Assembly: GCF_900167365.1 (NCBI RefSeq)
Contig: NZ_FUXL01000002.1
Span: 186,001 to 250,000 of the forward strand
Length of the DNA: 64,000 nt
Source of the DNA: Consotaella salsifontis
GTDB lineage: Bacteria; Pseudomonadota; Alphaproteobacteria; Rhizobiales; Rhizobiaceae
Reading direction: 5' to 3'
Both the position numbers and the translations under genes were made by a program. Of the stretch, positions 54,984 through 64,000 are shown piece by piece. The notes beneath the pieces are model-generated. The model saw only the letters and a program-made list of their open reading frames with translations, was not told where the DNA came from and did no database searches. The first letter of the stretch is position 1; each line of letters opens with the position of its first letter.

Positions 54984-55961
54984 ATGCTTAAAGTCGCCAA
55001 ATACCTGTTGCCCGCGCTCGTCGCCGGTTTTGCGTTCTCGGCCAGCGCGGCCGACTATCCGTCGCGCCCGATGGAATTCATCGCACCGGCCGGCGCCGGC
55101 GGCGGTTGGGACACCACCATTCGCGCCGTGGCGAAGGTCCTGTCCGACACCGGGCTCGTCAAGGTTCCGATGCCCGTCACCAACAAGCCCGGCGGCGGCG
55201 GCGGCGTCAATCTCGCCTACATGACCCAGAAGGCGAAGTCCGACACGATCGTCAGCGTCTATTCGCCCCCGCTCCTGCTGATCAACCTCAGCGGCACGAC
55301 CCCGCTTTCCTACAAGAACACGACGCCGCTCGCCCGCCTCATCTCGGACTACGAGGCGTTCGCGGTGAAGGCCGATTCCCCCTACAAGGACCTCAACGAC
55401 GTCATCGAGGCGCTGAAGAAGGACCCCGGCTCCGTCTCCATCGGCGGCACGTCGGCAGCAGGCAGCATGGACCATCTCGCCTTCGTGCAGGTGGCCAAGG
55501 CCGCGGGCGTCAACGACATCAAGAAGCTCAACTATATCAGCTACCAGGACGGATCGAGCCTCGCCCAGCTGCTGGGCGGCCACCTCGACATCCTGTCGAC
55601 GGGCATCACCGAGCTTCTCGGCCAGCTGAAGAGCGGCGACATTCGCGTGCTCTGCTACACGGCGCCCAAGCCGGTTGCGGGACGCGAAGGCATCCCGACC
55701 TGCCGCGAGGCGGGCGTTCCGGTCGACTTCCTCAACTGGCGTGGCCTCTTCGGCACAGAGAAGATGCCGGAGGCCGCCGTCAAGTACTGGCGCGACACGC
55801 TGGGCAAGATGGTCCAGACCAAGGAATGGGCCGACGCGCGCGCGCAATACGGCTGGGATGATTCCTATCTCGACGGGCCCGAATTCGAGAAATTCCTCGA
55901 GCAGTCCAACGAGGAATACAAGGGAATGCTCTCCGAGCTGGGCATGCTCGCCGCGCAGTGA
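54984..55961 (+). CDS. tctC: Tripartite tricarboxylate transporter binding protein (TctC family)
   Basis: This 325-residue extracytoplasmic receptor has a signal peptide (to about residue 24, AFSASAAD). The mature part starts YPSRPMEFIAPAGAGGGWDTTIRAVAKVL, the family's ligand-loop motif, and has NKPGGGGGVNLAYM, GGTSAAGSMDHLAFVQVAKAAG and the C-terminal half typical of Bug/TctC. It captures citrate or another tricarboxylate for TctAB. With citrate-lyase genes nearby, citrate is the best guess. Shine-Dalgarno GGGAGGAG. Confidence 0.92.
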   Translation: MLKVAKYLLPALVAGFAFSASAADYPSRPMEFIAPAGAGGGWDTTIRAVAKVLSDTGLVKVPMPVTNKPGGGGGVNLAYMTQKAKSDTIVSVYSPPLLLINLSGTTPLSYKNTTPLARLISDYEAFAVKADSPYKDLNDVIEALKKDPGSVSIGGTSAAGSMDHLAFVQVAKAAGVNDIKKLNYISYQDGSSLAQLLGGHLDILSTGITELLGQLKSGDIRVLCYTAPKPVAGREGIPTCREAGVPVDFLNWRGLFGTEKMPEAAVKYWRDTLGKMVQTKEWADARAQYGWDDSYLDGPEFEKFLEQSNEEYKGMLSELGMLAAQ

Positions 55962-56048: not shown

Positions 56049-56522
56049 TTGACCGATGGCAGTCTGCTCAGGAACAGCCGCTTTCTCGCCGGCCTTTTCG
56101 CCGTCGTGGTGGGCGCGGCGTGGGGGCTCGCCTCCTTCAGCATGCGCGACGCCGCCCTCGGCGATCCCAACGCGCCGAAGTATTTTCCCTGGCTGGTGTC
56201 CGGGCTCTGCGTCGTCTGCGGCGTCGCGCTGATCGTCAGCGAGATCCTGAAGCCCGGTGTCGCGCATCTGGTGACATGGGAATTTACGAGCACCCACCGC
56301 GCGGCGCTCATCGGCTCCGCCTTCGGCGTGCTCTACGCGCTGACGTTCGAGCCGCTCGGCTTCATCGCCTCCACCACCATCTTCATCGGCGGAATTTCGT
56401 TCGCCTATAACGGCGTCAAGCGGTGGAAGGCGAACATCATCACCGCCATCGGCTTCGCCATCATCGTCTTCTTCATCTTCACCTGGCTGGGCAAGCCCCT
56501 CGTGGCCTTCCCCGAGTTCTGA
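56049..56522 (+). CDS. tctB: Tripartite tricarboxylate transporter small permease (TctB family)
   Basis: This 157-residue membrane protein has four hydrophobic segments (LLRNSRFLAGLFAVVVGAAWGLASF; WLVSGLCVVCGVALIVSEIL; AALIGSAFGVLYALTFEPLGFIASTTIFIGGISF; NIITAIGFAIIVFFIFTWL). The conserved LTFEPLGFIASTTIF is typical of TctB. It is hard to identify alone, but its position between tctC and tctA is decisive. The start is TTG at 56049, after the GGAGACACGCCC sequence. Confidence 0.87.
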   Translation: MTDGSLLRNSRFLAGLFAVVVGAAWGLASFSMRDAALGDPNAPKYFPWLVSGLCVVCGVALIVSEILKPGVAHLVTWEFTSTHRAALIGSAFGVLYALTFEPLGFIASTTIFIGGISFAYNGVKRWKANIITAIGFAIIVFFIFTWLGKPLVAFPEF

Positions 56523-56536
56523 GCGTCGAGGCGATC

Positions 56537-58042
56537 ATGATCGAAATCCTTCAGAACCTCGCCTATGGCTTCACGATCTGCCTGACGCCGGAGAACCTTC
56601 TCTACGTGACGCTGGGCGGCGCGGTCGGCACGGTCATCGGCATGCTGCCCGGCCTCGGGCCGGCCACCGGCGTCGCCGTGCTCCTTCCCATGACTTATTT
56701 CATGGGGCCGACGGGCGCGCTAATCACCATGTGCGGCATCTATTACGGCGCGATGTTCGGTGGGTCGCGCGCCTCCATCCTGCTCAACACGCCGGGCGAC
56801 GGCGCGGCAGTCGCGGCCTGCTTCGACGGCTATCCGATGGCGCGCAACGGCAAGGCGGAATCGGCCCTCGCCATCTCGGCCATCGCCTCCTTCATCGGCG
56901 GACTGATCGGCGCCGTCATCTTCGTCTTCGCGGCCGTCTATGTCGCGCGCTTCGCGCTGCGCTTCGGCCCTGGCGAGTATTTCGCCCTGATGATCTTCGC
57001 GCTCGTTGCGACCGCCTCGCTGTCGCGCGGCAATCTCCTGCGCGGGCTGGTCTCGACGGCCATGGGGCTCATGGTCTCCACCATTGGCCTCGACGGGCTC
57101 ACGGGCGTCGATCGCTACACCTTCGGTTTCCTCGAGCTCATGGGCGGGCTCGACTTCCTCATCGTCATCATCGGCTTCTACGCGCTGGTGGAAGTCTATA
57201 AATGCGCCAATCCCAAAACGGTGACGCGTCAGGTCCAGACCAAGTTCGGCCCGATCTGGATCACCAAGGAGGAATGGCGGCGCTGCCTGATGCCGATCCT
57301 TCGCCAGGCGCCGATCGGCTTCCTCATCGGCGTGCTGCCGGGCGCCGGCGGCACCATGGCCTCAATGATGGCCTACAGCAACGAGAAGCAGCTCTCGAAG
57401 ACGCCCGAAGCCTTCGGAAAGGGCGAGATCGTCGGCCTCGCCGCTCCGGAATCGGCCAACAACGCCTGCTCCATCGGCGCCCTCATCCCCATGCTGACGC
57501 TCGGCATTCCGGGCTCTGGCGTAACGGCGGTGATGATGGGCGCGCTCTTGATGCTGGGGCTCCAGCCGGGGCCGACGCTCTTCCAGGATCATCCAGATAT
57601 CGTCTGGGGCCTCACCGCCTCGATGTTCGTCGGCAACATCATCTGCGCGATCATCAATCTGCCGCTGGCTTCTCTCCTGGTGCGCGTGCTCTCGGTGCCG
57701 GGGCGCATTCTCTACCCCTCCGTGCTCGGCCTTGCCTATCTCGGCATCTACGCCATCAGCGACAGCGCCTTCGACTTCTATCCCTTGATCCTCTTCGGAT
57801 TGCTCGGCCTCGTGCTCGACTTCCTCGACATTCCGACCTCGCCCTTCATCCTCGCGGCGATCGTCGGCAACATGATGGAGACGAATTTCCGCCGGGCGCT
57901 GAAGATGTCGGGCGGCGACATGGGGGTGTTCGTCAACTCCTCGATTTCCATCGTCCTCTACCTGCTGACCATCATCATCCTTCTGCTGCCGCTCTACCGC
58001 AGCTGGCGCGCGCGCCACACGACCGTCCCTTCCGCAGTCTGA
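56537..58042 (+). CDS. tctA: Tripartite tricarboxylate transporter large permease (TctA family)
   Basis: This 501-residue channel subunit has about 12 membrane segments. Repeat 1 carries GTVIGMLPGLGPATGVAVLLPMTYFM and GAMFGGSRASILLNTPGDGAAVA; repeat 2 carries GFLIGVLPGAGGTMASMMAYSNEKQLSK and LGIPGSGVTAVMMGALLMLGLQPGP. These duplicated GxxPGxG loops define TctA. The start at 56537 precedes MIEILQNLAYGF; an upstream frame inside tctB is not used. It completes the citrate transporter. Confidence 0.93.
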   Translation: MIEILQNLAYGFTICLTPENLLYVTLGGAVGTVIGMLPGLGPATGVAVLLPMTYFMGPTGALITMCGIYYGAMFGGSRASILLNTPGDGAAVAACFDGYPMARNGKAESALAISAIASFIGGLIGAVIFVFAAVYVARFALRFGPGEYFALMIFALVATASLSRGNLLRGLVSTAMGLMVSTIGLDGLTGVDRYTFGFLELMGGLDFLIVIIGFYALVEVYKCANPKTVTRQVQTKFGPIWITKEEWRRCLMPILRQAPIGFLIGVLPGAGGTMASMMAYSNEKQLSKTPEAFGKGEIVGLAAPESANNACSIGALIPMLTLGIPGSGVTAVMMGALLMLGLQPGPTLFQDHPDIVWGLTASMFVGNIICAIINLPLASLLVRVLSVPGRILYPSVLGLAYLGIYAISDSAFDFYPLILFGLLGLVLDFLDIPTSPFILAAIVGNMMETNFRRALKMSGGDMGVFVNSSISIVLYLLTIIILLLPLYRSWRARHTTVPSAV

Positions 58043-58158: not shown

Positions 58159-58839
58159 ATGCGCTCGATGCACATCCTTGTCGTCGAGGACGCCGAAGAC
58201 CTTGCCGATGCTGTCGTCAGCCATCTGCGCAAGCGCGGCTATGCCGTGGACTGGGTGGCGGAAGGGGCGGCGGCCGCCGAACTGCTTGCCACCGAGACCT
58301 ATCAGCTGGTCATCCTGGATCTCATGCTGCCCGGCATCGACGGCCAGACGCTGCTGCGCCAGATGCGCCGCGCCGCCGATGCCACGCCGGTGCTCGTCAT
58401 CACCGCCCGGTCGCAGGTGGACTGTGTCATCAACGTCCTCGACATCGGGGCGGACGACTACATGGTCAAGCCGTTCGACCTGGGCGAGCTGGAGGCACGC
58501 TGCCGGGCGCTCCTGCGGCGGCCACACGGCCAGACCTCCTCGACCATCACACTTGGCAATCTTGCCTTGGACGTGGCCGCGCGGCGGATCAGGATCAACG
58601 ACCAGCCCGTCGATCTCGGCGCGCGCGAGTTCGGGTTGCTCGAGATCCTGCTCGGCAATCTCGGCCGGGTGATGAGCAAGAACGCGCTGATCGACCAGCT
58701 TTTCAGCCTCGACCAGGCCGTGGCGCCCAACGCCATCGAGCTCTACGTCTCCCGGCTGCGCCGCAAGCTCGAAAACGCCTCGGTGGCGATCCGCACGGTC
58801 CATGGAATGGGTTATGTGGCGGAGAAGAAGCCCGAATAA
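58159..58839 (+). CDS. tctD: Response regulator, OmpR class (TctD-like)
   Basis: This 226-residue response regulator has a receiver domain with the acidic pocket HILVVEDAEDLAD, phospho-acceptor D54 in LVILDLMLPGIDG, ITARSQVD and the conserved Lys in DYMVKPFDLGELEAR. A winged-helix DNA-binding domain (about 125-222, ISTLGN-like start ITLGNLALDVAARRIRINDQ, ending LYVSRLRRKLE and VRTVHGMGY-like IRTVHGMGY) follows. Start candidates are ATG 58159 (GGAGG upstream), 58168 and 58090. It probably activates the tct operon in response to its partner kinase, encoded with a 26-base overlap. Confidence 0.93.
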   Translation: MRSMHILVVEDAEDLADAVVSHLRKRGYAVDWVAEGAAAAELLATETYQLVILDLMLPGIDGQTLLRQMRRAADATPVLVITARSQVDCVINVLDIGADDYMVKPFDLGELEARCRALLRRPHGQTSSTITLGNLALDVAARRIRINDQPVDLGAREFGLLEILLGNLGRVMSKNALIDQLFSLDQAVAPNAIELYVSRLRRKLENASVAIRTVHGMGYVAEKKPE

Positions 58840-61312
58840 GGCAGAGGGTTCGCTGCTTCAGCGGCTGCTGACGGTCGTCTTCGCCGTCTTCGGACTGCTG
58901 TCGCTGGTGCTGTTCTCCTTTCTCAGCGCCTTCGCGCACCACGCCGCCGACAGCGCCTACGACCAGCTTCTCTCGGCCTCGGCCTTCTCGATCGCCGACT
59001 CTGTCCGTGCCGAGGACGGGGTCGTCACGGTCGACCTGCCCTATTCCTCGCTGAATATTCTCGGCATGGCCCGGCGCGACCGCGTCTTCTATAAGGTGCT
59101 GGGCGCGGACGGCAGCCTTCTTACCGGCTATGGCGACCTGCCCGGCGAGCCACTCAGGCGCGGGTCAGGCGTCTTCGCGGATGCCGTCTATCGGCAAACC
59201 CCGGTGCGCACGGTTCGGCTCGGCAGGTTCGTCACCGGTGCCGAGGAGAGCGGCTGGGTGACGATCGTCGTCGCGCAGACGCGGGAGGAGCGCGGCCTGC
59301 TCTCTCAGCGCATCTTCGCCTATTCCTTCGCGCCGCTGACAGGCGCGATGCTCTTTTCCGCGCTCATGGTGTGGTTCGGCATTCGCAAGACGCTCCAGCC
59401 CCTGCGCAAGCTCGAGAACAGCATCAGCACCCGTCGGCCGCAGGATTTCACGCCCATCGAGATTCCCGCCCCGACGGAGGTCGCTCCCCTCGTCCAGGCG
59501 ATCAACCATTTGATGTCGCGCCTCAAGACGAGCCTCGAATCCGGCAAGATGTTTCTGGCCGATGCCGCCCACGAAATCCGCACGCCGCTTGCGGCCCTGC
59601 GTAGCCAGGCCGAGCTCGGCGTCGACGAAACCGATCCGGAGCGCCTGCGCCAGATCTTCGCGCGCATCCACCGGAACGCGGTGGAGGCGAGCGAGTTGAC
59701 GACCCAGCTCCTCAACCATGCGGCGGTCGTCCACCGCTCCGAAGCCATGCAGAAGCAGGCGATCGATCTCGCGGGTCTCGCCGCACAGGTGGTGCACCGG
59801 ACGGCCGTGATCGCGGAGAATGCCTCGATCCGCGTGCTGCGCGACGGCGGGGCGCCGGAACGGACGATAGAGGGGGATTCGATCATTCTGCGCGAGGCGC
59901 TCGCAAATCTCGTCGGCAACGCCATCAAGTATGGAGGCGCAGAGCCTGAGGTGGATGTCTTCGTGCACGGCGCGGCGGATGGGCGCGGGCCGGTCGTCGA
60001 GGTGGCGGATCGCGGCCCCGGCATCCCCGACGAGGAAAAGCCCCTGGTGCTGCAGCGCTACAGGCGCGGCAGCTCGGCGGCTGGCATGCCCGGCAGCGGC
60101 TTCGGCCTTGCCATCGTCACGGTGGCGGCCGAGGCCCACGAGGCGAGCCTGGAGCTACTCGATCGGCCGGGCGGCGGGCTCGTCGTGCGCCTGTCCTTCC
60201 CCTCGCCTGCCAAGGAAGTGACCGAGCCGCAACGCCGGCGGCGCCTGCCGTTTCTGCCGCCGCTCTTCCTTCTGGCACTTTTTCTTGCCGCCGCGCCAGC
60301 GCTCGGCACGGAGCGCATTCAGTTCCCTGCCACCGCCAAACAGGAAGCGACGCTGGTGATCGACGCGGCGGCCGACCAGCAGTTCATGGAACCGCTGATC
60401 CGCGACTTTCAGGCCCAGAACCCCGGCATCGGCGTCGCCTATCGCGACATGCTGACCCAGGATCTCTATGCCGCCACCATCGACCGCAACCAGTCCGACG
60501 GGGCCGACATCGTCATAAGCTCGGCCGTGGATCTCCAGGTGAAGCTGGTCAATGACGGCTACAGCCTGCGCTATTCCTCGCCGCGCACCGAGCGCCTGCC
60601 GCCCTGGGCGAAGTGGCGCGACGAAATCTTCGCCTTCTCGAACGAACCGGTGGCCATCGTCTACAACCGCGATCTCGTGCCGCCCGACGAGGTCCCGCAT
60701 TCGCGCGACGCGCTGATCCGCCTGATGCGCGAACACGAGGCGCGCTACAGCGGCAAGGTCGTCACCTACGACATCGCCAATGCCGGTCTCGGCTATCTTC
60801 TGGCGACGCAGGATTGGCTGCTGTCCAGCCAGTTCTGGCAACTCGCCACCGCCTGGGGCGATCTCGACGCCAAGCTCATGTCCCGTGCCTACGACATGCT
60901 GTCGGAGGTGGAGGCCGGCAGGGCGCTGATCGGCTACAACGTGCTCGCCAGCTATGCCCAAGAGCGGCTGGACGCCGGGGCGCCGATCGGAATCGTTCTG
61001 CCGACGGATTATACGCTGGCCGTCCCCCGGACTGCGGTCATACCGAGCACGGCGCGGCACCCGTCTATCGCTGGCCGGTTCATCGACTATCTGCTCTCGG
61101 AACGCGCTCAGGCCTTGATTGCCAAACGCACCGTCATCGACAACACACTGCCGCACGACGTCAACGAGCTTTGGTCGGCTAATCCGGGGCGTGGCGCCTT
61201 CGACGGCTCGATCTACAGGATCGCCCTCGGCCCCGGCCTTCTCGTCTTCCTGGACCGGCGCAAGCGCGAGCGCTTCCTGGAGCAATGGCGGATCGTGACG
61301 GCGGCCCGATGA
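58814..61312 (+). CDS. Histidine kinase (TctE-like) fused to a periplasmic binding-protein domain
   Basis: This 832-residue protein is unlike usual TctE, which ends at about 470 residues. The N-terminal part has TM1 (about 17-38), a periplasmic sensor (about 40-160), TM2, a HAMP-like linker, H-box with phospho-His253 in FLADAAHEIRTPLAALR, N-box NLVGNAIKYGG (about 366), and G-boxes DRGPGIP and SGFGLAIV. Then comes a short Lys/Arg-rich link, a hydrophobic stretch (about 478-500, LPFLPPLFLLALFLAAAPALG) and a complete family 1 extracellular binding-protein domain to the end. No stop separates the halves. An internal GTG at 60218, preceded closely by AAGGA, could also start a separate binding protein with this stretch as its signal peptide. 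Confidence 0.85.
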   Translation: MWRRRSPNKAEGSLLQRLLTVVFAVFGLLSLVLFSFLSAFAHHAADSAYDQLLSASAFSIADSVRAEDGVVTVDLPYSSLNILGMARRDRVFYKVLGADGSLLTGYGDLPGEPLRRGSGVFADAVYRQTPVRTVRLGRFVTGAEESGWVTIVVAQTREERGLLSQRIFAYSFAPLTGAMLFSALMVWFGIRKTLQPLRKLENSISTRRPQDFTPIEIPAPTEVAPLVQAINHLMSRLKTSLESGKMFLADAAHEIRTPLAALRSQAELGVDETDPERLRQIFARIHRNAVEASELTTQLLNHAAVVHRSEAMQKQAIDLAGLAAQVVHRTAVIAENASIRVLRDGGAPERTIEGDSIILREALANLVGNAIKYGGAEPEVDVFVHGAADGRGPVVEVADRGPGIPDEEKPLVLQRYRRGSSAAGMPGSGFGLAIVTVAAEAHEASLELLDRPGGGLVVRLSFPSPAKEVTEPQRRRRLPFLPPLFLLALFLAAAPALGTERIQFPATAKQEATLVIDAAADQQFMEPLIRDFQAQNPGIGVAYRDMLTQDLYAATIDRNQSDGADIVISSAVDLQVKLVNDGYSLRYSSPRTERLPPWAKWRDEIFAFSNEPVAIVYNRDLVPPDEVPHSRDALIRLMREHEARYSGKVVTYDIANAGLGYLLATQDWLLSSQFWQLATAWGDLDAKLMSRAYDMLSEVEAGRALIGYNVLASYAQERLDAGAPIGIVLPTDYTLAVPRTAVIPSTARHPSIAGRFIDYLLSERAQALIAKRTVIDNTLPHDVNELWSANPGRGAFDGSIYRIALGPGLLVFLDRRKRERFLEQWRIVTAAR

Positions 61313-61343: not shown

Positions 61344-61970
61344 TCAGCCGGCGGCCGGCTGGCGGCCGTCGCCGGAAATGTCGCAATAGGCGCTGTCGAG
61401 GCTGTCGTCCCAGGCGTCGACACGGTCGACGAGCGCCTTCAACAGCTCCACGCCATAGGGCCAGGGACCGAATCCCGCCTCGGCGTTGATGTGGCCGACT
61501 TCGCCCACATCCACCAGATGGCCGCCCCACACCCCCGTCCAGTGAATCGCCCTTTCGAACGGCATCAGGCGATCATTGCGGCTGGCAACGATGACGGAGG
61601 GGACGCCGAGATTGGACTGCGGCACACGATCCTCGACGTGAAACTTGGAGGGCTGGGCCGGCGCCACCAGCATCAGGCCAGCGACCAGGTATTCGCCCTC
61701 GGCGGCGATGCAGCATGAGGCGAGCGCGCCGAGGCTATGGCCGACAAGGATGGCGGGATGGCGGGCGGTCGCCAGATCGCGCCGAATGGCGCTGATCCAG
61801 CGCTCGATGTCGGGGTCGTCCCACTTGCTCTGGCTGATCCGGCGCCAGAAGCTGTGGCGGCGCTGCCAATGGCTCTGCCAATGCTCAGGTCCGCTGTCGT
61901 AGAGGCCGGGCACGAGAACGAAGTCATAGCGCTCGGAGGCCGCAAGCAGCGCCTCGTCGATCTCTTCCAT
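61344..61970 (-). CDS. RBBP9/YdeN family alpha/beta hydrolase
   Basis: This 208-residue serine hydrolase has the family N-terminal FVLVPGLYDSGPEHWQSHWQR (oxyanion and substrate side), the nucleophile in ILVGHSLGALASC (Ser about residue 79), VIVASRNDRLMPFE (catalytic Asp) and VGHINAEAGFGPWPYG (catalytic His). Members hydrolyse small esters; cellular substrates are unknown. The start at 61970 is chosen for GGAAG upstream; 62021 would add 17 residues. It lies between the tct and cit genes but shows no obvious link to citrate. Confidence 0.88.
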   Translation of the reverse strand: MEEIDEALLAASERYDFVLVPGLYDSGPEHWQSHWQRRHSFWRRISQSKWDDPDIERWISAIRRDLATARHPAILVGHSLGALASCCIAAEGEYLVAGLMLVAPAQPSKFHVEDRVPQSNLGVPSVIVASRNDRLMPFERAIHWTGVWGGHLVDVGEVGHINAEAGFGPWPYGVELLKALVDRVDAWDDSLDSAYCDISGDGRQPAAG

Positions 61971-62060
61971 CAAGGCTTCCACCGGCCCGCCCGTCCCCGC
62001 GACACCAACGCTGATGAACATTCGTTCAACAAAAACAATAATCCCCCCGACCGCGCTTCA

Positions 62061-62981
62061 TCAAGGGGCCGTACCGCCGCCGAGGCGCTCCGCATGAGCG
62101 AGAAACCACGTGACGGCGAGAAGGTCGGCCGAGCCGCCGGGGTTGAGATTGCGCTCGATCATCGCCTCGTCGAGGACGATCATCGCCTCAATGAACCCTG
62201 GATGATCGATGCCCCCCATCGCCCTCAGCCGGCGCGCCTTTTCCTGGATGTAGCGGAGAGCGCCCACACCGCCTCTTGTCACGATGTTGGTGTCGGCATT
62301 GACGGCGAGAAGCTCCAGGAACGCAGAGAGAAGCGCCATCCTTCCCCCCGCACCCGCCTCGCGCGCTTGACGGTAGGCGGGAAGCGAATACTGCCGTACC
62401 GTGGCGAAGCCCGAGGCGGCCTCGCCGCGCGCGCCCGTCAGGCCGTGAAGCCGGTAAAGATGCTCGCCCGCCGTCCGCGGCTGGCCGGCGTGCCCTAGCT
62501 CGGCCTCTACCAAGCCGTCGCACATCCGCGCCACTTCCTCGCAAAGATCGTCGACGTCGGGGCGCCGGGGCAGGGCCGAAAGGCGTCCGGCCGCCGCCAG
62601 CAGAAGCCCAAGAGCGAAGATCGAGCCCTTGTGGCAGTTGACGCCGCCGGTGGCAGTCAGCATCGCGCGTTCGCATGCGATCCCCTCGCCCCGGATCGAG
62701 GCGAGGAATGTCCTCGGAGGGATGCCGCTGCCCTCGACGCCGCAGCGATGAAAGCGCAGGAAAAACGGGGCGATAGCGGCCGCGCTCGCCATGAAGGTGG
62801 ATAGCTTCATGTCGCGGTTGGCGCCACTGTTGCGCCGGTCGACGAGGCCGGGCTTGGGCGTCAGCGTCACTTCGCGGATCAGCGCACGATACGCCAGCCC
62901 CGCCCACGCGGTGGAAGTCACGGCGCTCGACGCGGATAGAACAAGCGCGGGGTCAGTCGCCGCCGAAACCGAGAGAGGCAT
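62061..62981 (-). CDS. citG: Triphosphoribosyl-dephospho-CoA synthase
   Basis: This 306-residue enzyme makes the prosthetic-group precursor of citrate lyase from ATP and dephospho-CoA. Family motifs are intact: LTPKPGLVDRRNSGANRDMKLSTFMASAAAIAPFF near residue 40, then CERAMLTATGGVNCHKGSIFALGLLLAAAGR, and AVNADTNIVTRGGVGALRYIQEKA. The start at 62981 overlaps the CitX gene by 29 bases. It could also be MdcB of malonate decarboxylase, but the upstream citX and citF decide for CitG. Confidence 0.93.
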   Translation of the reverse strand: MPLSVSAATDPALVLSASSAVTSTAWAGLAYRALIREVTLTPKPGLVDRRNSGANRDMKLSTFMASAAAIAPFFLRFHRCGVEGSGIPPRTFLASIRGEGIACERAMLTATGGVNCHKGSIFALGLLLAAAGRLSALPRRPDVDDLCEEVARMCDGLVEAELGHAGQPRTAGEHLYRLHGLTGARGEAASGFATVRQYSLPAYRQAREAGAGGRMALLSAFLELLAVNADTNIVTRGGVGALRYIQEKARRLRAMGGIDHPGFIEAMIVLDEAMIERNLNPGGSADLLAVTWFLAHAERLGGGTAP

Positions 62982-63519
62982 GGGCTTTTTCCGCAACAAT
63001 CGAGAACAGCTCTTCCACGGGATGGCGGCGCGAGCGGGCGCAGACGTGAGCCGCCTCCCCGCAGACGAGACATCGCCGCACGGGAAGACCGAGAGCACGT
63101 CGCGAAATGCTAAGCTCGCCCAGCGCGATGACGTCAAGGTCCCACAGCCGGCCGAGCTCATGGGTCTCCTCGATCGCCGTCATCGCCCGCTTGATATCCG
63201 CCGCTTCGGCGTCGATGACGACAAGCGCCTCCGGCCCCGTGCCCGCAGCGATCCTCTCCTCCGCCAGGATCGTCCAGCCACACCCGCGCGCCGCCGCACG
63301 AACCTGCTCGATCGCAGCCGCCAGCAATGGCGTGGCGAAAGGCGGGTTCTTCACCGCGCCCGGCATGACCAGGGTGAGGGAAACCAAAGGGCGGTGAAAG
63401 CGCGCCAGCATCGCCCCCTGGCGCTCCACGCGCGCCTCGCGGGCGGCGAGCATTTCCTCGAGAGTGATCGGGCGGGCATGGGAGTCCCCTCGCCCGCCGA
63501 TATCGACGGACCAGGTCAA
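62953..63519 (-). CDS. citX: Citrate lyase holo-[acyl-carrier protein] synthase
   Basis: This 188-residue enzyme attaches the triphosphoribosyl-dephospho-CoA group to the acyl-carrier subunit of citrate lyase. The family features are LEEMLAAREARVERQGAML, LVSLTLVMPGAVKNPP, the nucleotide-site HELGRLWDLDVI, and the Cys-containing RRCLVCGEAAHVCARSRRH at the C-terminus. The start codon is apparently TTG, overlapping the citF stop (TTGA), so it is translationally coupled. No better in-frame start is available nearby. Confidence 0.92.
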   Translation of the reverse strand: MTWSVDIGGRGDSHARPITLEEMLAAREARVERQGAMLARFHRPLVSLTLVMPGAVKNPPFATPLLAAAIEQVRAAARGCGWTILAEERIAAGTGPEALVVIDAEAADIKRAMTAIEETHELGRLWDLDVIALGELSISRRALGLPVRRCLVCGEAAHVCARSRRHPVEELFSIVAEKAHASLGFGGD

Positions 63520-64000
63520 CCCTTGACCTGCCGGACGACGTCTATCACCGTGCCGTCGCGGTAGCGCACGATGCCGACGACCTTGTCGAGATATTCGATC
63601 GGTCGCGGTTCGCCGGTAATTGACACGGCGCGCTCATGAAGCTCCTCGATGGAAAGCACCGGCAGGCCCGCCGCCTTTAGCCGCTCGGCGACCTCGGGAC
63701 GGGCGGGATTGACCGCGACGCCATGGTCCGTGACCAGCACGCCGATGCATTCGCCCGGCGTCACCACGGTGTTGACCCGCCTGACCACGGTCGGAATGCG
63801 GCTGCGGATCAAGGGCGCGACGACGATGGCGAGGTTGGCGCCCGCCGCCACGTCGCTGTGGCCGCCCGAAGCGCCGCGCATTACGCCGTCCGAGCCAGTG
63901 ATGACATTGACGTTGAAGTCGAGATCGACCTCCAGCGCCGAGAGGACGACGATGTCCACCTGATCGACATAGGCGGCCTTGCCGCGCGGGCTGGCGTACT
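63516..64000 (-). CDS. citF: Citrate lyase alpha subunit (partial)
   Basis: Only the C-terminal 160 residues or so lie in the window; the gene continues past base 64,000. CitF transfers the acetyl/citryl group between citrate and the acyl-carrier protein thioester (citrate CoA-transferase subunit). Visible family sequence includes SPRGKAAYVDQVDIVVLSALEVDLDFNVNV, GSDGVMRGASGGHSDVAAGANLAIVVAPL and RIPTVVRRVNTVVTPGE, and the protein ends at VRQVKG. Citrate lyase yields acetate and oxaloacetate. It is the first visible gene of a citF-citX-citG operon. Confidence 0.95.
   Translation of the reverse strand, partial: YASPRGKAAYVDQVDIVVLSALEVDLDFNVNVITGSDGVMRGASGGHSDVAAGANLAIVVAPLIRSRIPTVVRRVNTVVTPGECIGVLVTDHGVAVNPARPEVAERLKAAGLPVLSIEELHERAVSITGEPRPIEYLDKVVGIVRYRDGTVIDVVRQVKG

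Follow-up and report, generated by a model that had tools for sequence, protein, structure and literature searches.

An in-frame fusion of a TctE-type histidine kinase and a solute-binding protein as a probable cleavable sensor polyprotein

Binding proteins that act together with sensor kinases are described in the cited parts of several studies. In the BctC-BctE-BctD system of Bordetella pertussis, which is described together with bctCBA, the periplasmic binding protein contacts the kinase and is needed for citrate signaling (PMC5812351). In the HptA-HptS-HptR system of Staphylococcus aureus, the ligand-binding protein switches its contact on the extracellular domain of the kinase (PMC8534201, PMC8774646, PMC8399564). 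BvgS-type kinases contain Venus-flytrap domains that resemble solute-binding proteins (SBPs) in one chain with the kinase (PMC8534201). Here, we analyze a gene that joins a TctE-type histidine kinase to an SBP in a 64,000-nucleotide stretch of Consotaella salsifontis (contig NZ_FUXL01000002.1, positions 186,001 to 250,000; the whole stretch is hereafter called the window). From sequence comparison, we propose with a probability of roughly 0.6 that the gene belongs to a citrate-responsive TctD-TctE system whose sensor SBP lies in the frame of the kinase, is made as part of a polyprotein and is cut into the kinase and a free periplasmic SBP.

Translation of positions 58814-61312 yields 832 residues without a stop codon, which bears out the uninterrupted frame reported in an earlier reading of this DNA (the initial annotation); an alternative start at ATG 58802 would give 836 residues. 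The full TctE-like kinase with H, N and G boxes, also claimed there, occupies residues 1-464 and is evident from its Pfam domains and from the residues that are invariant in the 30-row alignment A3 (H253, N365, N369, D399, G401, G403, G427, G429 and G431). The 2CSK_N, HisKA and HATPase_c domains are found in 33/33 members of homologue alignment A2 (E 0.001), and a HAMP match at residues 190-238 of the fused protein lies below the Pfam cut-off. TctE-type kinases end after the ATPase domain, as the initial annotation pointed out, and here 368 residues extend beyond residue 464. They contain the basic linker (RRRR at residues 474-477) and the hydrophobic stretch (about residues 478-495) noted earlier and, as was also claimed, a complete SBP (residues ~505-827), in which SBP_bac_1, SBP_bac_11 and SBP_bac_6 all match above the Pfam cut-offs within residues 518-773. 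In an AlphaFold2 model based on a 30-row alignment, both halves fold (mean predicted local distance difference test score (pLDDT) 83.5, predicted template modeling score 0.65), and pLDDT is below 50 across residues 465-498.

Is the fusion a sequencing artefact? Homologous single frames occur in other genomes, and thus sequencing error or a frameshift is ruled out by 38 other fused frames. The fusion is real and recurrent. The collection comprises 39 distinct fused frames, that of the window included, and 47 split tandem gene pairs; these 86 usable pairs remain from 88 after removal of L092, which shares its genome place with L074, and of L171, which comes from the genome of L073. The fused single frames in other genomes cover nearly the whole query, some on a single contig and some on named plasmids, and the rows of alignment A2 are 32-53% identical to the window protein. 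The initial annotation had suggested a search for the architecture in related genomes, and it recurs in partly overlapping samples that each count the window's genome. A near-full-length single-frame homologue is present in 14/394 genomes of the family sample (at E 1e-90, 15 matched, of which L038 has a stop), in 21/397 of the order sample (26 matched, two with a stop and three kinase-only) and in 3/385 of the class sample (22 matched at E 1e-60). In the phylum sample (398 genomes), 53 matched at E 1e-60, and the window's own genome alone has a full-length single frame. Weaker fused cases could be missed in these counts, because two candidates were scored per genome at strict E cut-offs of 1e-90 or 1e-60. 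A separate scan of genome contigs returned six distant loci that match mainly the kinase half.

Plasmids also carry the fused gene. Among the 40 records listed of 247 matching, 13 (11 from Azospirillum, one from Peteryoungia and one from Sulfitobacter) match without a break over 93-94% of the query. The fused genes at L065:6866-9361, L066:6869-9367 and L067:6872-9271, all on named plasmids, carry no annotation other than 'extracellular solute-binding protein'. The same label stands on 12 of the 13 unbroken plasmid matches among those listed, and the thirteenth is without annotation. Such labels conceal the kinase half from surveys.

The junction between the two halves looks like a working protein-export signal, with an internal signal peptide that is predicted to be cut by signal peptidase I. 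In a MAFFT alignment of 30 fused proteins, built without reference to the motif, the -1 column is Ala in 27/30 rows and has an entropy of 0.56, the minimum for the stretch from the end of the kinase to the YPA block of the mature SBP. At -2, the entropy is 3.36, which no column from the hydrophobic core onward exceeds (one column in the linker has 3.49), and the -3 column contains Ala 17, Val 4, Leu 3 and Thr 2. In the three rows without Ala at -1 (the window, L040 and L037), an acceptable site is present at an offset of one or two residues. When the 30 members of the main clade are aligned apart with four other fused rows, -1 is Ala in 27/30, -3 is Ala in 19 and Val in 4, and the -2 entropy is 2.88. 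A motif scan finds strict AxA at 30/39 fused junctions and in 33/47 split genes; shuffled junction regions give a mean of 20.9/39 and a maximum of 29, so that none of 500 shuffles reached 30. The median length of the hydrophobic core is 15 residues at fused junctions and 16 in split SBP signal peptides, compared with 20 and 24 for the first and second transmembrane helices (TM1 and TM2) of the fused kinases. It is the conserved -3/-1 pattern together with this short core from which cutting by signal peptidase I is predicted.

Cytochrome c1 genes of the same order served as a yardstick for a cytochrome b-c1 junction. Among 22 long frames from loci L184-L244 chosen by heme-motif pattern, of which 18 are taken as true joins because visual inspection of L235, L236, L243 and L244 shows no cytochrome b-like sequence upstream, -1 is Ala in 21/21 filled rows, -3 is Ala in 17, Val in 3 and Ser in 2, and the -2 entropy is 2.57. 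Furthermore, an in-frame ATG with a Shine-Dalgarno sequence precedes the SBP in 0/39 fused genes versus 28/47 split genes. Judging from these start regions, translation of the fused SBP seems to require that of the kinase, whereas the putative site for its release is retained. The difference in start signals and the column statistics of the junction are the main reason for the polyprotein reading.

Which ligand would the SBP bind? In a profile search, its closest solved relatives are 3c9h, an Agrobacterium SBP (E 2e-107), and MctA (about 1e-79), followed by ferric-binding proteins (6e-14); a Foldseek search with the model also retrieves MctA (about 1e-25). In both sequence and fold, the SBP resembles MctA. 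The entry titles of MctA (PDB 7f6e and relatives) name a metal-citrate-binding protein with citrate or Mg-citrate bound. Pfam TctC (PF03401) has no match in the fused protein at E 0.01 and does match the separate tctC product; the SBP half is not a TctC protein. A sugar-phosphate reading was dropped, since the match to 4r72, which we take to be AfuA, is only 4.5e-7. AfuA is the subject of PMC4546632, as far as the cited part of that paper goes. Six MctA positions (S26, D28, S79, S164, T199 and Y221), mapped by eye and presumed, from the titles of mutant entries, to line the citrate site, are kept in 54 family rows as follows: D28 in 51, S79 in 50, S164 in 49, S or T at 199 in 50, Y221 in 52 and S26 in 7. 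A point that tells against the proposed citrate-responsive system is that the window's own protein keeps D28, S79 and Y221 only and has Ala at the other three of these mutated positions. Homology with MctA and the tct and citrate-lyase neighbors point to a citrate-type ligand: citrate is the likely ligand, although a related tri- or dicarboxylate may be bound instead.

The tctCBA genes and tctD are located upstream of the fused gene, and citrate lyase genes are found downstream, past one open reading frame (Table 1). The citG, citX, citF, citE and lyase ligase genes are all oriented towards the fused gene; citE, the lyase ligase gene and the complete citF extend beyond the window edge (L245). 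Because about 200 bases of the citG frame overlap with citX, citG probably starts further inside. In Azospirillum thermophilum, a malic enzyme gene and citCDEF stand beside the copy of the fused gene. A close fused relative, L138 (G758), lies on a fragment that starts at a contig end and carries citE together with a 2-hydroxycarboxylate-type transporter, with no TctA match there. In the wide stretches compared for 39 fused and 28 split loci, some of which end at contig ends, a response regulator lies within 1 kb in 39/39 and 28/28, and TctA lies within 8 kb in 35/39 and 25/28, respectively.

Table 1. Features of the fused gene and its surroundings (positions in the window)
Feature	Position	Strand	Basis
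tctC, the transporter's own binding protein	54984..55961	+	Pfam PF03401
tctB	56049..56522	+	Pfam PF07331
tctA, tripartite tricarboxylate transporter permease (start provisional)	56528..58042	+	Pfam PF01970, E 2.7e-153
TctD-like response regulator, 26-base overlap with fused gene	58159..58839	+	Response_reg and Trans_reg_C; TctD model best but below cut-off
Fused gene, TctE-type histidine kinase and SBP, 832 residues	58814..61312	+	single frame; Pfam; 38 further fused homologues
2CSK_N periplasmic sensor domain, residues 28-167	58895..59314	+	Pfam PF08521, E 2e-36
HisKA domain, residues 247-301, phospho-acceptor H253	59552..59716	+	Pfam PF00512; H253 invariant in 30-row alignment A3
HATPase_c domain, residues 354-464	59873..60205	+	Pfam PF02518
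Basic linker, residues 465-477, putative n-region of internal signal peptide	60206..60244	+	sequence; pLDDT <50 over 465-498
Putative h- and c-region of internal signal peptide, residues 478-498, with possible cut sites ALG|T499 or APA|L497	60245..60307	+	junction alignments; motif scan
Predicted mature SBP, residues 499-832	60308..61309	+	Pfam SBP families; 3c9h and MctA similarity
Frame of 225 residues, no clear family, between fused gene and citG	61344-62021		
citG-like gene (true start probably further inside)	62061..63161	-	TIGR03125 over cut-off, residues 87-356
citX-like gene	62953..63519	-	TIGR03124 over cut-off
citF, 3' part, gene running past window edge	63516..64000	-	TIGR01584 partial, fragment below cut-off; whole gene over cut-off

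We propose that one gene probably yields two partner proteins from one chain. The kinase would insert via its two membrane helices, and the internal signal peptide (about residues 470-498) would route the remainder through Sec. Signal peptidase I would cut near 498/499, leaving the kinase with a short membrane stub at its C terminus and releasing the SBP into the periplasm, the two in a one-to-one ratio. The ligand-loaded SBP, most likely carrying citrate or metal-citrate, would dock on the 2CSK_N domain of the kinase, rather as HptA does on HptS, and TctD would then switch on tctCBA. Of the citrate-type receptor that the initial annotation placed in the periplasm, this mechanism keeps the periplasmic placement and the citrate-type ligand, and a permanent membrane tether becomes less likely.

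The SBP could reach the periplasm differently. It might also be translated separately from an internal start such as GTG 60218, which the initial annotation had named as the start of a possible separate protein. A start codon with a Shine-Dalgarno-like stretch indeed precedes the SBP in 5/39 fused versus 32/47 split genes, and the scanned region of 15/39 fused genes contains an in-frame ATG, never with a Shine-Dalgarno sequence; however, the scanned region before the SBP in the window's fused gene has no start codon with such a stretch, and the AAGGA located one base before GTG 60218 is too close. Given also that ATG and a Shine-Dalgarno sequence are never combined before a fused SBP, separate translation is very improbable. 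The chain might instead stay intact, with the hydrophobic stretch and its basic flank as a third membrane helix and the SBP held by the sensor domain of the kinase as a built-in receptor. Some split relatives appear by eye to keep their SBP at the membrane, through lipobox-like ends (L057 and L059) or signal-anchor-like sequences (L008 and L010), and several properties of the junctions speak against cutting. The window's own junction deviates from the Ala column, with ALG|T as its site or, two residues before it, APA|L. In the motif scan, each region was represented by its best match, which at times falls inside the hydrophobic core, and strict AxA also follows TM1 and TM2 in 9 and 0 of 39 fused kinases and in 12 and 16 of 47 split kinases; given its frequency after the helices of the split kinases, AxA alone is weak evidence of cutting. 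The sensor domain, too, has a conserved A-x-A (A55, A57), within a generally conserved stretch. In addition, a matrix trained on split signal peptides scores fused junctions at a mean of 2.2 bits versus 5.3 for split ones. The matrix, applied to 33 fused and 41 split rows (12 rows left out), picked up family-specific residues after the cut; the fused mean was reached by 7/300 shuffle sets, and fused junctions score above TM1 and TM2. Its outcome is either against a polyprotein or uninformative. An intact chain is nonetheless unlikely, because Ala is conserved at -1 beside a variable -2, the hydrophobic core is short and the cytochrome b-c1 frames are alike; AlphaFold2 places no firm helix over residues 465-498, which is weak evidence either way. 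The permanent third membrane crossing that the initial annotation envisaged as the tether of the receptor is accordingly less favored than a cut, as the junction keeps signal-peptide features, and the kinase would possibly be tied directly to its receptor if the site were left uncut.

The SBP half might also serve transport, for example as part of an ATP-binding cassette (ABC) importer, and have no relation to sensing. MctA, the nearest named relative, is described as an ABC-transporter protein, and an ABC ATPase lies within 3 kb in 9/39 fused loci (1/28 split), an observation that tells against the sensor interpretation. Two ABC permease queries, however, matched within 3 kb in 0/39 fused and 1/28 split loci, although they represent permease types other than MctA's own, which leaves room for one of that kind, and a regulator is present within 1 kb in 67/67 loci and tctA within 8 kb in 60/67. 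A role in transport alone is thus highly improbable. A further caution for a sensory SBP comes from the cited part of PMC11113362: adjacency of sbp and kinase genes does not always imply a functional link, and two Pseudomonas aeruginosa kinases showed no interaction with SBPs encoded nearby. Where neighboring genes can mislead in this manner (PMC11113362), repeated fusion is good evidence that the SBP works with the kinase, and it argues for a functional link between the two.

How often did the two genes join? On unrooted trees of both halves, in which fusions and splittings among the label changes are not readable, five changes of the fused label are needed; 13 near-identical or odd rows were left out of the 73-row tree. 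A single clade of all fused rows was rejected in the approximately unbiased (AU) test (p 1e-46; 43/86 rows, LG; 18 fused rows used), and one fused clade has an AU p of 0.002 when L058, L067, L072 and L071 are left out (43 rows, LG). In L038, L057 and L059, the kinase and SBP frames lie in the same frame with one stop codon between them. By sequence, these loci look like a neighboring state from which loss of one stop would give the fusion, and the change could have run in either direction. In one family of this order, cytochrome c1 occurs both joined to cytochrome b in long frames and as separate genes, which may be another instance of repeated fusion or splitting. As a tentative generalization, to which we would give slightly less than even odds, the fused genes may form a recurrent class of cleavable sensor polyproteins: several lineages would have merged the kinase and co-receptor genes, lost the start signals of the second gene and kept a signal-peptidase site, which would combine a fixed ratio with separation after export.

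The domain combination has been tabulated previously. Table 3 of PMC4618731 lists one classic kinase with SBP_bac_1 each in A. lipoferum 4B, Azospirillum sp. B510 and A. brasilense CBG497, and these kinases probably belong to the present fused family. In the literature found by our search, which includes the cited part of PMC4618731, the combination is only tabulated, and a description of the junction or mechanism was not found. The fusion points to a likely citrate receptor in those TctDE systems in which a second SBP is present.

How does the fused protein, a probable SBP-assisted TctE-type kinase delivered as a polyprotein, compare with the known systems? Like the Bct system, it is a two-component system adjoining a tripartite tricarboxylate transporter. 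The signaling SBP of Bct, however, is the TctC homologue of the transporter and is encoded by a separate gene, whereas here a second SBP of another family is joined to the kinase and tctC is also present. The Hpt system differs in its separate genes, its glucose-6-phosphate ligand and its Gram-positive host. In BvgS, the flytrap domains form the kinase's own periplasmic region, whereas the SBP of the fused protein follows HATPase_c. MctA is the closest named SBP by sequence and model but is described as an ABC importer component. FbcH of Bradyrhizobium is a cytochrome b-c1 polyprotein that is cut by signal peptidase. As in the fused gene, a membrane protein and an exported one are encoded together and linked by an internal signal peptide, and the -3/-1 signature is common to the homologous frames; it differs in that it serves a respiratory complex and contains no receptor. 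If the cut is confirmed, the fused gene would be the signaling counterpart of the cytochrome b-c1 polyprotein.

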